In this document: positions 15,520 to 43,588 of the stretch, piece after piece
Layout of the letters: each line of letters begins with the position of its first letter
Position numbering within the stretch: position 1 is the stretch's first letter
Assembly: GCA_017883205.1 (NCBI GenBank)
Contig: JADGNZ010000049.1
Coordinates: forward strand, 1-45,005
DNA from: Thermoanaerobaculia bacterium
GTDB lineage: Bacteria; Acidobacteriota; Thermoanaerobaculia; Gp7-AA8
DNA: 45,005 nt
Direction: 5' to 3'
Notes under the pieces: model-generated
The model's input: only the letters and a program-made list of their open reading frames with translations
Told to the model about the DNA's origin: nothing
Databases searched by the model: none
Position numbers and translations under genes: made by a program

Positions 15520-15549
15520 ACGTCGATGTCCGGAATGACGGGCCCTCTC

Positions 15550-15608
15550 CCCGAAGAAGCACGGGGAGAAGGCGCTCGACGCGCAGGTGTCGCTGAAGGT
15601 GTGAGAAA
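15550..15608. repeat. Half copy of the MITE-like element
   Basis: A hairpin (CTCTCCCCG...CGGGGAGAAGG) followed by GCGCTCGA and then GTGTGAGAAATTCGGG reproduces one terminal half of the element found in full at 42109-42414: internal hairpin, spacer and near-perfect terminal repeat. The other half is absent. Confidence 0.6.
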
Positions 15609-15676
15609 TTCGGGAAGGCGAAACGCACGGTGCTCGCTCGGCGGCCAAGGAGGATGGCACTCGCGCAGCGCTTAAT

Positions 15677-15962
15677 CGCGCATCTCTGCCGCTTGTTGCT
15701 TGTTGTACCTAACGACGACGCATCTTCCTTTTCCTGGAGCACTTTCCAATCGAGCGCCTTCTCCCCCCGCGTTTTTTGCGGGGGGAGAAGGTGGCGAAGC
15801 CGGATGAGGGGGGAGAAAATACGCTGGGCGATCAACTATGCCTCGTCCGAACTTGCCTGAAAACGCGGCACATGCACCGATGTCGTAATCGTGCAACGCC
15901 CCCCTCATCCGCCTTCGGCGCTCGATTGGAAGGAGTTGCGATAGGAGTGTGAGAGAGTGCGT
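15677..15962 (-). mobile_element. MITE-like palindromic element, copy A (degraded)
   Basis: Contains the hairpin CTTCTCCCCCCGC, GTTTTTT, GCGGGGGGAGAAG (13-bp perfect stem, about 15759-15791), GGATGAGGGG, a core and CCCCTCATCC in inverted order. The second hairpin is deleted. The core (GGCGATCAAC...TCGTCCGAA, AACGCGGCACAT) matches the reverse complement of copy B, so the copy lies in the opposite orientation. Terminal repeats are degenerate (CGCATCTCTGCC; GTGTGAGAGAGTGCG). No transposase. Confidence 0.75.
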
Positions 15963-29586: not shown

Positions 29587-29593
29587 GGCCTGG

Positions 29594-29907
29594 CCGCTTT
29601 TCTCACACCCTTATCGCAACCTTCCAATCGAGCGCCTTCTCCCCCACGCTTTTCAGTGGGGGAGAAGGTGCCGAAGGCGGATGAGGGGGCGTTCCAACGA
29701 GTCCGACATCCGTGGATGTGCCGCGTTTTTAGGCAATTCGGACAAGGCGAGGTTGATCGCCCTGCGCAATTGCTCCCCCCTCATCCGGCTTCGCCACCTT
29801 CTCCCCCCGCAAAAAGCGCGGGGTGAGAAGGCGCTCGATGGGAAAGCACTCCAGAGAAGGAGGAAGGGGAATAGCAAAGTACTGTAGCAAGCGTGTGAGA
29901 AATGCGG
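29594..29907 (+). mobile_element. MITE-like palindromic element, copy B
   Basis: Terminal repeats CCGCTTTTCTCACAC and GTGTGAGAAATGCGG bound two inverted modules. Each is a hairpin of CTTCTCCCC with loop and GGGGAGAAGG, followed by GGATGAGGGG (or its complement). The core around 29710-29790 (GTGCCGCGTTTTTAGGCAAT, GGTTGATCGCC) matches copy A in reverse complement. Subterminal TTATCGCAACCTTCCAATCG also matches copy A. No transposase; flanking bases show no clear target duplication. Confidence 0.85.
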
Positions 29908-30214
29908 GGCCAGGTCTTGTTTCGGCTCGGGCTCGTTTCAAAACTTTTGGAGCTATCACGCCGGGTCCAACCACCGTGGCGGGACGCCCCGATGGCCGCG
30001 GGCGAGACGCCCACACTCCTCGGTGCCCCGTCGCAAGGAGTGCGGTCGTCTCGACCGCGGGCACTCGGGCGTCCTCGCCTGAGTGCTGTCGGGCGGCGGT
30101 CGAAATCCGTCAACCGTTGAGCCGATGCGTAGTTTCATGGAGCCGTGCAACATACTCTTGTCTTCCACGCTCGATAATCATAACGGCACGAAAGCAGCTG
30201 CGTCATCAGAGTCC
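29908..30214. other. Gene-free stretch with dispersed GGGCGAGACGCC motifs
   Basis: No credible gene. Around 29985-30080 there are inverted GCGGGCGAGACGCCC and CTCGGGCGTCCTCGCC-type motifs with GCACTCC or CACTCCT nearby. The same motif set occurs at 34405-34460 and appears to be another short dispersed repeat. Confidence 0.5.
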
Positions 30215-39897: not shown

Positions 39898-40811
39898 CAC
39901 AGTTCGATCCTCAGAATGCGCCGCAGCCAGACGAAGCCGGCCAGCTGCAGAAAGATCGCGGCGACGAAAAGTTGTGGCCCCCACGGTAGCGCCCACACGA
40001 TCGCCAGCGCCTCGGGACGTTTCCACGCGAAGATCGCGATCAGGAGATAGGGGAGGATCGCAACCATGATCGCTCCGGTCTGCGCTCCGGCGATGTGCGT
40101 GTACAACTTGCCGCGCAGATTGATGCTGTGCCGCATCGTCCGCGTCACCGCCTGCAGCGCCGGAGCGAGCGGGCCTCCCACTTCCCATTTTGCGATGAGC
40201 AATTGCGTGAAGATGCGGACGCTCTCGGAGTCGTAACGAAGAACGATCGGCTGGACCGCCCGGTCGATCGGAACCGATGCCCGAAGTTGTGCCGCGAGCT
40301 CGGTCAACTCCCGCCTGACCGGTTCCATCGCGCCCTCCGCGCCACTGGCCAGCGCCTCGGCCGGACTCTGGCCGGCCGACAGCGCGCCGACCGTGAGATC
40401 GATCGCATCGACGAGCCGGCTCTCGAAGCGCCAGGCGCGTTGACGGGCCGCTTCGATGATCGTCGACCAGATCAGCCATGCCACTGCGATTCCGGCGAGC
40501 GGACCTGCCCAAAAGAGTCCCGGAGCGATCGTCACGACGGCCAGCGCGACAAGGATGCCGATGAGCACCAGAATCGCGATGGCCATCGCCGGCGATAACC
40601 GTAGCCCTGCGGCAAGGAGCCTTCGTTCGAGGAACCCCGGCGGTTTCTCTTCGACGGGATCTGCGCTTGTCGCTGCGTCCTTGCCGAGCAAGCGGCCCAA
40701 GTGCGCCTCGTCCTGCCGGACTTCGGAGCGAGTACGAAGCAGCCTCCAGGTCGCGAAGATCGCCATGATCACCGCAGCCGCAATCAGCAAGAGCGTGCTG
40801 TTCGGACTCAC
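39897..40811 (-). CDS. tadB: Tad pilus inner-membrane platform protein TadB
   Basis: 304 residues. One N-terminal helix (about 5-20), a pair at about 90-130 (MAIAILVLIGILVALAVVTI), a cytoplasmic T2SS-F domain (AWRFESRLVDAIDLTVGALS, AGQSPAEALASGA, AKWEVGGPLAPALQAVTRTM) and a C-terminal pair around 245-300. Overlaps cpaF by 4 bp and tadC by one base of the stop codon, so the three are tightly coupled. Confidence 0.92.
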   Translation of the reverse strand: MSPNSTLLLIAAAVIMAIFATWRLLRTRSEVRQDEAHLGRLLGKDAATSADPVEEKPPGFLERRLLAAGLRLSPAMAIAILVLIGILVALAVVTIAPGLFWAGPLAGIAVAWLIWSTIIEAARQRAWRFESRLVDAIDLTVGALSAGQSPAEALASGAEGAMEPVRRELTELAAQLRASVPIDRAVQPIVLRYDSESVRIFTQLLIAKWEVGGPLAPALQAVTRTMRHSINLRGKLYTHIAGAQTGAIMVAILPYLLIAIFAWKRPEALAIVWALPWGPQLFVAAIFLQLAGFVWLRRILRIEL

Positions 40812-42115
40812 GCTTGTCGCTCCGATCGGTCTGCGTTGAGCGTGGCCATGAACGGGCCGTACGCGGCAGTCGGTTGAAAACGTCCGTGCACCGCGTCGTA
40901 CGTGAAGAGGTCGCGCGCCCGCACTTCGCCGCCGCCGAACGTGATCTCGGCAAGGCTGGTCAGCCGCCGGCTTCCGTCGGCAAACCGCGCCAACTGCGCG
41001 ACGAGATGCACGGTCGACGAGATCAACTCGCTGAGCGTCGACGGTGCCAGCTCGCCGCCGCCCATCATCACCAGGCTCTCCAGCCGGCGGATGGCATCGC
41101 GCGGCGAATTCGCGTGAATCGTGGTGAGGCTGCCATCGTGGCCGACGTGCATCGCCTGCAGCATTTCGAACGCCTCGGCGCCGCGCACTTCGCCAACGAT
41201 GATGCGGTCCGCGCGCATGCGCAGGGCATTGCGCACGAGCGTTCGCAGGTCGACGCCTCCCGTGCCTTCCGCGTTCGGCGGACGCGCTTCGAGCGCCACG
41301 ACGTGCGGATGCTCCAGGCGCAACTCCGCCGTCTCTTCGATCGTCACGACGCGCTGGCCGTCGGGGATCGAACGCGAGAGGACGTTGAGCAACGTCGTCT
41401 TTCCCGCGCCCGCGCCGCCCGAGATCACAACGTTACGCCGCTGCCGCACCGCGGCCGTCAGCAGTTCGGCCATCTCCGCGGTGAGTGTGCCGAACGCGAC
41501 AAGCTCGTCGATCCGATAAACCGTCTCGCGCGCGCGGCGGATCGAGACCACCGTTCCTCGCAGGCTGACCGGCGAGAGAACGGCGTTTAACCGAGAGCCG
41601 TCGGGCAAGCGCAGATCGACCCACGGAATCGCCTCATCGAGCCGTCGTCCCTGCGTCGCCACCATGCGCCGCAGGATGCGTCGCACGTGCGCCTCGTCGT
41701 CGAAACGCACCGACGTCTTTTCGAGCTTGCCGAACCGGTCGATCCAGACTTCCGCCGGCCCGTTGATGAGGATGTCGGACACGGTCGGATCGCGCAGCAG
41801 TCGGGCGACCGGTCCGAGCCCCTCCGCCTCGTCAACGAGCTCCTGCTCGATCTCGTTCACACCCTCGGGCGACAGTTCCTCGACCTCGGGGCTCTCATCG
41901 AGAATCGCCCGAATGCGGCTGCGATTGAGCGCACCACCGCCCGTCGTCTCGAAGTTTCGCAGAATCCGCTGGAACAAACGTTTCCGCAGTCCCGTGCGCT
42001 CCGACGGCACCGCGGCATCGGACGGCACAGTACCGAGCGGAAGCTGTCTCCGATTCCACGACGCGCGGATCAAGGAGCGCAAATCGTCGCTGCCTGTCGC
42101 CGGGTTAACCCGCAT
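40808..42115 (-). CDS. cpaF: Tad pilus ATPase CpaF/TadA, start codon inside a MITE end
   Basis: A 435-residue secretion ATPase. The N-terminal helical part contains LRKRLFQRILRNFETTGG, then GLGPVARLLRDPTVSDILIN. Walker A is SGGAGAGKTT (about 232-241), Walker B-type and His-box regions RMRADRIIVGEVRGAEAFEM and HVGHDGSLTTIHANSPRDAI. All are intact. The first ATG (42113-42115) lies within the terminal repeat of a MITE that separates it from tadZ; removing the element restores an ATG overlapping the tadZ stop in the same phase. So residues 1-2 (MR) come from the element and replace an original MT. It powers pilus assembly. Confidence 0.93.
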   Translation of the reverse strand: MRVNPATGSDDLRSLIRASWNRRQLPLGTVPSDAAVPSERTGLRKRLFQRILRNFETTGGGALNRSRIRAILDESPEVEELSPEGVNEIEQELVDEAEGLGPVARLLRDPTVSDILINGPAEVWIDRFGKLEKTSVRFDDEAHVRRILRRMVATQGRRLDEAIPWVDLRLPDGSRLNAVLSPVSLRGTVVSIRRARETVYRIDELVAFGTLTAEMAELLTAAVRQRRNVVISGGAGAGKTTLLNVLSRSIPDGQRVVTIEETAELRLEHPHVVALEARPPNAEGTGGVDLRTLVRNALRMRADRIIVGEVRGAEAFEMLQAMHVGHDGSLTTIHANSPRDAIRRLESLVMMGGGELAPSTLSELISSTVHLVAQLARFADGSRRLTSLAEITFGGGEVRARDLFTYDAVHGRFQPTAAYGPFMATLNADRSERQA

Positions 42116-42414
42116 TTCTCACACCTTTGAAGAATTCGGCGCTCCCTTGCATCGAGCGCCTTCTCCCCCCGGGCTTCTTCGGGGGGAGAAGGTGCCGAAG
42201 GCGGATGAGGGGGGTGACGGCTCGACAAGCGATGTTCTCTCGCGAAAGGCTGATCGACAGGCCTGGGTTTCTCCCGTCATGCAAGCCTCGCCGCGCCAGG
42301 AAACACCCCCTCATCCGGCTTCGCCACCTTCTCCCCCACAAAAAGCGTGGGGGAGAAGGCGCTCGATCGAAAACGTAGTGTGCACAATTCCAGTGAGAGT
42401 GTGAGAAATGCGGG
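42109..42414 (-). mobile_element. MITE-like palindromic element, copy C, inserted at TTAA in cpaF
   Basis: 306 bp with perfect 16-bp terminal inverted repeats CCCGCATTTCTCACAC and a TTAA on each side (42105-42108 and 42415-42418) as target duplication. Two internal hairpins face each other: CTTCTCCCCCC/GGGGGGAGAAG (42160-42191) and CCTTCTCCCCCAC/GTGGGGGAGAAGG (42327-42359), each next to GGATGAGGGG or its complement. The core differs from copies A and B. No transposase. On the minus strand the whole element is open in the frame of the ancestral cpaF start (42425 to 42105). Confidence 0.92.
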
Positions 42415-42421
42415 TTAACCG

Positions 42422-43588
42422 TCATGACGTCTTCCCGTGAGCGGGTGCGTTGCGGACGACATCTTTGGCCAGCTTTCGCACGGCATCCGCAAACTGCGCC
42501 GCGCCACGTTCCATCAGTGCCGGCGCACCTCGATGCGTTCCGACTGCCACCGGCCAGATGAACGGCACGACGTGCTCCACAGGCCGGCCGAGTTGTCCGG
42601 CGATGATGTCGGGAGCCAGTACGTCGGCTTCGCGCCGGAACCGGTTCACCACCAGTCTCACGCGCTCTTCTCCGAATCCGAGCGAAGCGAGCATGCGCAG
42701 CAGCCGCGCAGTTCCCGCGATCGTCGGCGCGTTCCCCTCGGTGACGACGACGACCGTCTCGCTGAGGTCGAGGACGGAAAGCGTCATCAGATCGAGCACC
42801 GGAGCCGTGTCGACGACGACGATCTGGTACCTCCGCTGCAGTTCGATCAGCGCGCGGCTCAAGTCTTCCGGCGTGATCATTTGCGCGGCGCGCGGGTCGA
42901 GCGGACTTGCCAGAACGGCGATGCCAGGAGCGGGGCCGCCGGTCGGGAGCGGGAACATCATTCCGGCAGCGAGCTCCTGAAGACCGTCGCCGAGGTCGCG
43001 GTCAGGAACGAGGCCGAGGTGGGCGGCGGCGCAGCCGAATTGAACGTTGGCGTCGAGGAGCACGACGTTGCGGACGGGCTCACCGGTTCGGAGGGCCAGC
43101 GCAGTGTTGACCGCCAACGTCGTCGTTCCGACCCCACCCTGGTGACTGAAAAAAGCGATGCTGCGTCCCTCATGTGCGGCCGGTCCGGCCTCAGGCATCG
43201 CAGCGAGCGCCGCCGACACTTCGACATCCGAAAGCGGGAGAGGAACGAAATCGCCGATGCCGGCGCGCACCGCCTGCCGCAGAAACTCGGCCTCGGACGC
43301 GTTTCCCGAGTCGACGAATGGATTGAAGAGCCCGATGAGCAGACGGTCTGCGCGCCGGAGCTCGCGCGCCGCGCTGAGCGCCAACGCCCGCTCCTGAGCC
43401 AGATCGAGAAGAACGATGCGCGGATCGAACTCCCGTCCGATCTGGATCGCGGCGCCGGCTTGCGCGGCGTGCCGCACAGCGATCGAATTCTTGTGCGTCC
43501 GGCGCAGCACGCTCTCGACTTCACTGCGCACCACCGGGTCGGGGTGAACGATGAGCACGCGATCGGTACGTCCGGAGGTCACGGCCAT
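42422..43588 (-). CDS. tadZ: Tad localisation ATPase-like protein TadZ/CpaE
   Basis: 388 residues. A receiver-like N-terminal domain (about 9-128: RVLIVHPDPVVRSEVESVLR, DPRIVLLDLAQ) is followed by a ParA/MinD domain. The deviant Walker A at 149-157 reads HQGGVGTTT: the signature lysine before GG is Gln and the usual K of KT/KS is Thr, so ATP hydrolysis is doubtful. Other elements are present (LLDANVQFGCAAAHLGL, VVVDTAPVLDLMTLSVLDLS). TadZ proteins localise the pilus apparatus at the pole and need not hydrolyse ATP. It overlaps the upstream pilin-like gene by 10 bp. Before the MITE arrived its stop overlapped the cpaF start (ATGA). Confidence 0.9.
   Translation of the reverse strand: MAVTSGRTDRVLIVHPDPVVRSEVESVLRRTHKNSIAVRHAAQAGAAIQIGREFDPRIVLLDLAQERALALSAARELRRADRLLIGLFNPFVDSGNASEAEFLRQAVRAGIGDFVPLPLSDVEVSAALAAMPEAGPAAHEGRSIAFFSHQGGVGTTTLAVNTALALRTGEPVRNVVLLDANVQFGCAAAHLGLVPDRDLGDGLQELAAGMMFPLPTGGPAPGIAVLASPLDPRAAQMITPEDLSRALIELQRRYQIVVVDTAPVLDLMTLSVLDLSETVVVVTEGNAPTIAGTARLLRMLASLGFGEERVRLVVNRFRREADVLAPDIIAGQLGRPVEHVVPFIWPVAVGTHRGAPALMERGAAQFADAVRKLAKDVVRNAPAHGKTS

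Follow-up and report, generated by a model that had tools for sequence, protein, structure and literature searches.

Within the 45,005-nucleotide stretch of Thermoanaerobaculia DNA analysed here (the window), a short transposable element interrupts the third codon of cpaF, and one of its terminal repeats places a new ATG in frame with the remainder of the gene. We consider it probable that CpaF is now translated from this ATG, by ribosomes that restart after reading a leader across the element. The original prediction, a MITE in the cpaF start whose terminal repeat gives a replacement in-frame ATG, is borne out by the following features.

40808–42115, minus strand: cpaF/tadA ATPase in its present reading frame, 435 aa (Pfam T2SSE, E 8.5e-59)
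42103–42124, plus strand: inverted-repeat arm, 22 nt, including TTAA and two flanking bases (22/22 complementary to 42399–42420)
42105–42108, no strand: TTAA target-site duplication, cpaF side
42105–42425, minus strand: 106-codon leader, running from the old cpaF ATG across the full element and ending at the TAA within the distal TTAA
42109–42414, no strand: MITE-like non-autonomous element, 306 bp, copy C of the original prediction (matches in its own genome, terminal repeats, flanking TTAA)
42113–42115, minus strand: repeat-supplied ATG, the present apparent cpaF start
42116–42130, minus strand: Shine–Dalgarno-like lead, ..AAAGGTGTGAGAA-ATG, with AGGTG 6 nt before the ATG
42399–42420, minus strand: second inverted-repeat arm, 22 nt (22/22 complementary to 42103–42124)
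42415–42418, no strand: TTAA target-site duplication, tadZ side
42422–43588, minus strand: tadZ, 388 aa, open frame (AAA_31 and CbiA matches; name from the original prediction and gene order)

On the minus strand, the tadZ stop codon TGA (42424–42422) is overlapped by the ATGA (42425–42422) of the old cpaF start, and the element entered at GTTAAC, in codon 3 of cpaF, within this overlap. The coordinates uphold three further predicted details: TTAA flanks the element on both sides; the overlap is split by an insertion whose length is not a multiple of three (the old and new starts lie 310 nt apart, and 310 mod 3 = 1); and the protein changes in residue 2 alone, from T to R. Read outward, the terminal repeat of the element family is TGA-GAA-ATG-CGG-GYT-AR, a stop–start–stop cassette with a Shine–Dalgarno-like lead, in which the start codon has a same-frame stop 3 nt upstream and an other-frame stop beginning 8 nt after its first base. 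The anti-Shine–Dalgarno duplex reaches −8.2 kcal/mol at the new cpaF start versus −4.3 kcal/mol at the old one. Across the family, the 20 nt upstream of the repeat start codon pair with a median of −7.4 kcal/mol (256 ends, which share the repeat and are therefore non-independent) versus −3.5 kcal/mol for 3,000 random 20-mers. The neighbouring T2SSF-type gene, cpaF and tadZ are all open frames with Pfam matches, and dN/dS is low for cpaF (0.126/0.957), a value averaged, like that of the toxins below, over branches possibly mostly older than the insertions. The element holds only short frames in the list of open reading frames, the longest mainly inside it being 106 aa. Seven Rfam matches to the element (E up to 1), among them the microRNA families MIR1858, MIR1437 and mir-3154, Antizyme_FSE and MAT2A_A, all scored below their gathering scores and were set aside as chance products of the inverted repeat.

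An element-free version of this junction is present in the nearest relative, a member of the same genus whose cpaF is 79–82% identical (L044/L121); the empty cpaF junction was found in this one near relative. There, the tadZ stop TGA is overlapped by GTGA at the cpaF start, and CpaF begins MTEDLRSL, with seven residues fewer, versus MTVNPATGSDDLRSL here. The expectation that an empty junction would show an overlap at the same start was thus realized, whereas the expected MTVNP-like N-terminus was not: because the relative reads MTEDLRSL, it corroborates the position of the start and not the letters VNP.

The old cpaF start opens a leader of 106 codons; its TAA stop begins 8 nt beyond the first base of the new ATG, an arrangement under which tadZ and cpaF could remain coupled despite the insertion. 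The junction RNA is predicted to fold at −204 kcal/mol, a structure that may lower cpaF output. With the whole junction RNA folded, the new start is buried (mean unpaired probability 0.08); when only the last 60 nt upstream are kept, it is freer (0.55). Across the family, the corresponding entry frame is open in 76/156 element readings compared with 30% of shuffles, and the other two entry frames likewise exceed shuffles (67 and 68 of 156), so that openness is not peculiar to the leader frame.

The arrangement recurs at four further insertions: one at apbE and three at a single antitoxin–toxin junction. Of the 30 ParE-like loci inspected, three (L357, L359 and L361) have an element immediately separating the antitoxin gene from the toxin gene, and the first available toxin codon, supplied by the repeat, is ATG, GTG and ATG, respectively; L358, L362 and L365 have an element-free junction with the target intact. 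Two of the three element-carrying toxin loci match Pfam ParE_toxin, and dN/dS is low for the toxin (0.055/0.47). The three toxin-junction elements have different nearest relatives, and from their sequences the insertions were apparently independent of one another. A single old insertion behind the G121 and G122 elements, which their alignment at ~66% identity would permit, was considered, but their best matches lie in other sub-families and we treat them as independent. At cpaF, the three toxin junctions and apbE alike (5/5), the frame of the old start stays open across the element and on into the cassette, its stop beginning at +8 relative to the new start in four cases and at −6 in one. The duplications are inexact at all four of the other insertions, and in apbE a TTG at codon 10 and a GTG at codon 12 of the present frame make alternative starts possible. 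Folds of two toxin junctions gave z scores of −1.1 and −3.0, from which we draw no conclusion. The predicted notion of a portable start thus gains four further insertions, but the phase match is not rare and no significant phase bias emerges family-wide, as set out below.

The account we favour for cpaF runs as follows. A non-autonomous element with a YTAR target duplication, presumably moved by a transposase, inserted at GTTAAC. Ribosomes finishing tadZ would restart at the old ATGA and translate the 106-codon leader, which would melt the long hairpin in which the new start is otherwise buried; leader translation would end at the TAA in the distal duplication, with restart at the adjacent ATG, to yield a CpaF differing in residue 2 alone. 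Initiation could instead occur independently at the repeat ATG on its own Shine–Dalgarno-like lead, with neither leader translation nor coupling to tadZ. The strength of the anti-Shine–Dalgarno pairing and the placing of AGGTG would suit such a start, but the 22-bp inverted repeat buries both the Shine–Dalgarno sequence and the ATG, and the old frame reaches the stop–start cassette unbroken in all five cases, where about half would be expected, which makes independent initiation doubtful. A CpaF that starts at an internal TTG, rendering the old and new ATG both irrelevant, is highly improbable: such codons stand at positions 12 and 15 of the present frame, but in the relative these codons are CTT and CTG, and the only start codon nearby is the GTG that overlaps the stop.

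It is also conceivable, if unlikely, that the insertion silenced cpaF or strongly reduced its expression, leaving the in-frame ATG a bystander in a lineage whose tad locus is decaying. The heavily folded junction RNA would fit such an outcome, the phase match had a roughly even chance of arising, and the insertion looks recent, with perfect 22-nt arms and an intact TTAA pair; because it looks recent, the absence of decay in cpaF proves little. Against silencing stand the open, Pfam-matching frames of cpaF, tadZ and their T2SSF-type neighbour, a lead better than that of the old start, and the reappearance of the arrangement at four other insertions.

A transposon that lands in an operon is usually assumed to break the gene it hits and to hinder those downstream. 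Here, the terminal repeat, presumably required for transposition, could have a second role as a signal for translational restart. If so, the survival of elements within tightly packed, overlapping operons would be explained, both gene callers and arguments from knock-outs could misjudge genes carrying such insertions, and the junctions would be natural ready-made constructs for measuring restart after a translated leader. More tentatively, the family ends may constitute a mobile restart cassette that leaves overlapped neighbours translatable, coupled via the open leader, and that was adopted on three occasions to attenuate translation of a toxin; the cassette would suit overlapped operons because the phases open to YTAR within genes include its own.

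Several known systems share parts of this arrangement. Bacterial MITEs, as described in excerpts of PMC10969869 and, for Coxiella QMITE1/2, PMC5896051, are likewise short, multicopy elements with terminal inverted repeats, target duplications, stem–loop RNA, overlaps with gene ends and no transposase frame; those accounts concern in-frame fusions, C-terminal overlaps and promoters, whereas here the terminal repeat offers a replacement start codon, and the term 'start codon' is absent from the main text of both papers. Rickettsia palindromic elements are also mobile elements tolerated in protein genes through reading-frame fit, but in the portion of PMC10969869 that treats them they are in frame and part of the host protein, whereas here the frame is shifted and the host protein would restart at the far end. 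Identity with those elements was rejected, as the insertion is not a multiple of three and the old frame stops at the TAA of the far end. In termination–reinitiation gene pairs, only a few bases separate stop from start and restart needs no long scanning; such restart is efficient when overlaps are short and drops steeply with distance (PMC6728339 and PMC10666635). The difference here is that a mobile element, together with its target duplication, carries the stop–start unit. In the open full-text literature, with subscription papers outside this scope, we found no bacterial element whose terminal repeat is described as supplying a replacement start codon.

The element is MITE-like, resembling a non-autonomous DNA transposon: it is short, multicopy, bounded by inverted repeats and a target duplication, matched by empty sites in relatives and has no apparent transposase frame. 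No IS5-type transposase lay between repeat pairs at 12 DDE_Tnp_1 (PF01609) loci in six genomes, where the repeat gave scattered single hits at ≤4 mismatches and assemblies break at the elements. The PF13701 transposase had no match in the element's own genome and matches in 4/18 family genomes, none of which has a pair of such ends. Inspection by eye of 19 ends without a nearby partner recognized no transposase frame. A possible two-copy longer element has ends (L036/L041 and L037/L039) that are cut off by contig ends 95 bp inward, and no transposase was seen; searched by its end sequences, it matched no plasmid record, and its matches, in 2 and 4 of 148 genomes, were partial or were fragments at contig ends.

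The 321-bp query has 116 matches in its own genome, and the terminal repeat behind YTAR occurs with zero mismatches in 19/148 genomes of the class, compared with none for a reversed control pattern. Complete members are most often 170–179 bp long (35/65). Exact four-base duplications flank 39/65 complete elements and 38 of these 39 are YTAR, the duplication typical of IS5-group insertion sequences (PMC10359306), both shares being biased upward because most loci were fetched with YTAR-containing patterns. By type, the 39 comprise CTAG (15), CTAA (9), TTAG (9), TTAA (5) and GTAG (1), and a one-mismatch TTAA pattern also retrieved CTAA, TTAG and others. The predicted TTAA target is therefore right for this copy and wrong as the sole target, and an IS1380/piggyBac origin, which implies strict TTAA, was rejected.

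In 318 gene-like frames, YTAR sites fell in phase YTA|R 82 times and in NYT|ARN, the phase of the cassette, 79 times, with the cassette-phase share differing by site (TTAA 18/25, CTAA 29/42, TTAG 18/40 and CTAG 14/54). A null of one-third was dropped, as an in-gene YTAR in the third phase would itself be a stop. Because genic YTAR sites sit in the cassette phase about half the time, the in-phase ATG at cpaF is unremarkable. Frames 0:1:2 stood at 21:24:4 among 49 junction-spanning frames and 12:7:1 in the subset of 20 whose coding margin was positive, where the codon-usage gene score is a rough filter only, having missed the real apbE frame; the ATG frame was not overrepresented across the family as a whole, and by our own reckoning 12/19 is not significant against a null of one-half. 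Ratios of 10:4, 7:0 and 5:0 (P = 0.09, 0.008 and 0.03) rest on cases chosen after the fact. The Pfam scan of outward frames stands at 20 of 234 (116 + 118). At least two frame-1 ends (L036 and L039, with no Pfam match) apparently cut genes without giving a start. Left uncounted, because their old starts are uncertain, were weaker candidates for start replacement: glycosyltransferase frames (L212, L084 and L280/L355), a Kdo-kinase-like frame (L277), a sigma-54 activator frame (L111) and an STT3-like frame (L317).

The window belongs to an Acidobacteriota genome. Its minus strand carries tadZ, then cpaF (Pfam T2SSE) and then a T2SSF gene, and the tadZ–cpaF junction is split by a MITE-like element whose arms, 22 nt each, are complementary throughout:

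42422-43588, minus strand, tadZ, upstream of cpaF
42109-42414, element of 306 bp between tadZ and cpaF, with TTAA at either side
42425-42423, minus strand, old cpaF ATG, sharing ATGA with the TGA of tadZ

Insertion occurred in codon 3 of cpaF, and the distal element end reads GAGAA-ATG-CGG-GTT-AAC-CCG, in the phase of cpaF. Re-reading of the window sequence showed the letters reported for this junction in the original prediction to be correct, bearing out its claim that a MITE-like element sits at the cpaF start and that its terminal repeat contains a new in-frame ATG. The best available reading, which is supported, is that cpaF takes a new in-frame start from this repeat, one that is probably used. 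Pairing with a generic anti-Shine-Dalgarno string, rather than one taken from the 16S of this organism, was −8.2 kcal/mol at the new start versus −4.3 kcal/mol at the old one.

A same-genus genome (L044/L121; cpaF identity 82% and 79%) lacks the element at this junction. Its tadZ ends in ..GKAS, with the TGA overlapped by GTGA, and cpaF from there reads MTEDLRSL. Relatives with an empty junction had been expected to show an ATGA overlap and an MTVNP-like N-terminus. The GTGA overlap with the tadZ TGA confirms the position of the cpaF start, but the VNP letters are unconfirmed because the relative's N-terminus is 7 residues shorter than that of the window (MTVNPATGSDDLRSL). Among 12 loci compared at this junction (L121–L132, out of 80 cpaF-relative loci), two have a 4-nt overlap (L121, GTGA; L125, TTGA) and one has a TAGTG junction (L123), all three from Acidobacteriota or Vicinamibacteria; no such overlap was seen in the remaining 9 of the 12, which are assigned to other phyla or groups.

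From the old cpaF ATG, a leader of 106 open codons runs across the entire element and stops within the distal TTAA, whose TAA lies 8 nt beyond the A of the new ATG. The junction RNA has a predicted fold of −204 kcal/mol (z −12 versus shuffles), in which the mean unpaired probability of the new start is 0.08, compared with 0.55 when only the last 60 nt upstream are included. Translation of the leader would unfold the stem and bring the ribosome to a stop beside the new cpaF start, which is possibly reached by restart after the translated leader.

In the outward direction, each element end has the sequence G-TGA-GAA-ATG-CGG-GYT-AR. An in-frame TGA lies 3 nt upstream of the ATG, and in a different frame the TAR of the target (YTAR, the 4-base target-site duplication of the family) serves as a stop that begins 8 nt past the first base of the ATG. 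Thus, of the three frames exiting the element, two terminate only a few bases from a fresh start codon. Efficient restart needs short stop–start overlaps and drops steeply with distance, according to two published reports (PMC10666635; PMC6728339). Among 281 distinct outward ends collected at ≤3 mismatches, the start position holds ATG in 236, GTG in 18 and TTG in 3, the rest having none of these. In the 20 nt before the repeat's start, median anti-Shine-Dalgarno pairing was −7.4 kcal/mol across 256 ends, all of which share the repeat, versus −3.5 kcal/mol for 3000 random 20-mers. That element ends in general act as mobile restart cassettes is a plausible idea, and one that reporters could test directly.

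The arrangement recurs at an antitoxin–toxin junction, where what we take to be Phd/YefM-like antitoxins, named by recognition of their sequence, precede ParE-family toxin genes (Pfam E 7e-12 in genome G021 and 3.7e-13 in G122; the G121 toxin was assigned by 92% identity to that of G122). An element lies directly between the two genes in 3 of 30 homologous loci examined (L357–L386, from a homologue listing that contained further places): L357 (G122, ATG), L359 (G121, GTG) and L361 (G021, ATG). In all three, the repeat's codon is the only nearby start for the toxin. At three other loci (L358, L362 and L365) the junction is free of the element, and its intact target contains the antitoxin stop; the other 24 have different junctions or are unreadable. 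G021, G121 and G122 belong to one family. These are apparently three independent insertions at one site, because the nearest relatives of the three elements differ (L229/L230, 86%, 132 nt; L276, 81%, 170 nt; L231/L356, 82%, 176 nt) and the G021 and G122 copies align in opposite orientations, although the elements are imperfect palindromes themselves. The duplications are inexact, with at least one change each, indicating that the insertions are not recent. At L359, the changed upstream duplication lets the antitoxin frame continue ~8 codons into the element. In G119, apbE (Pfam E 1.2e-85) makes up a fifth case; here too the duplication is inexact (CTAG/CTCG), and a TTG and a GTG at codons 10 and 12 are alternative possible starts.

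The old start's frame is open across the element in all five cases (106, 74, 65, 60 and 67 codons), and its stop begins at +8 relative to the new start in four and at −6 in one. By our own reckoning from family shares, five of five would arise by chance with a probability of ~0.013, which is unusual; openness played no part in choosing the cases, and the test was conceived after the fact. Across the family, 76 of 156 element readings (60/114 at 140–215 bp; 3/18 at 215–400 bp) keep the old-start entry frame open, versus 30% of shuffled interiors, and the other two entry frames are also raised (67/156 and 68/156). An in-phase ATG is itself no rarity, since in 318 gene-like frames YTAR occupies the cassette's phase 79 times versus 82 for the other allowed phase (TTAA, 18 to 7; CTAG, 14 to 40). 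The phases showed no significant excess among 49 junction-crossing frames (21:24:4) or among the 20 with positive coding margin (12:7:1), and several of those 12 retain a plausible internal start of their own. Substitution rates suggest purifying selection on the toxins (G121 versus G122: dN 0.055, dS 0.47) and on cpaF (window versus the same-genus G001: dN 0.126, dS 0.957) as an average over branches that may be largely older than the insertions.

Of the 148 genomes searched in the class, 19 contain the 14-nt repeat CCCGCATTTCTCAC behind YTAR without mismatches and none contains the reversed control pattern; at ≤1 mismatch, the repeat occurs in 6 of the family's 18 genomes. Interiors diverge widely from element to element. 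TTAA, the form that flanks the cpaF element, is one of four: a TTAA pattern with one mismatch also retrieved CTAA and TTAG forms, and YTAR accounts for 38 of the 39 exact 4-base duplications among 65 complete elements, a share biased by the presence of YTAR in the patterns used to fetch most loci. A piggyBac/IS1380 origin is unsupported, as CTAA, TTAG and other non-TTAA targets are in use. Searches by element ends and transposase profiles, with inspection of ends lacking a partner, found no transposase for the family. Four contigs of the window's own genome break 95 bp inside elements with this terminal repeat (99 bases from the duplication start) at L036:1501-1599 and L041 (one kind, CTAA) and at L037:1-99 and L039:1501-1599 (another, TTAG), a pattern that would fit an autonomous element of two copies missing from the contigs.

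Many of the 116 matches in this genome are confined to the inner inverted repeat (CTTCTCCCCC..GGGGGAGAAGG..GGATGAGGGGG) and lack the terminal repeats; this inner repeat may therefore be a separate one acquired by the element. At L034:1501-2303 and L073:1501-2270, YTAR and the terminal repeat enclose long minisatellite-like arrays of unrelated units with no hairpin interior, the L034 units being built around GAGGGTTTACCG. Copy B of the element family (29593-29908; ~71% identity over 277 columns; ends GCCGCTTTTCTCA..TGAGAAATGCGGG) has no YTAR duplication; its flanks, ..CCTG and GCCAGG.., seem instead to continue the inverted repeat. In copy A (15545-15926), fragments of the inner inverted repeat and one end of the element are rearranged.
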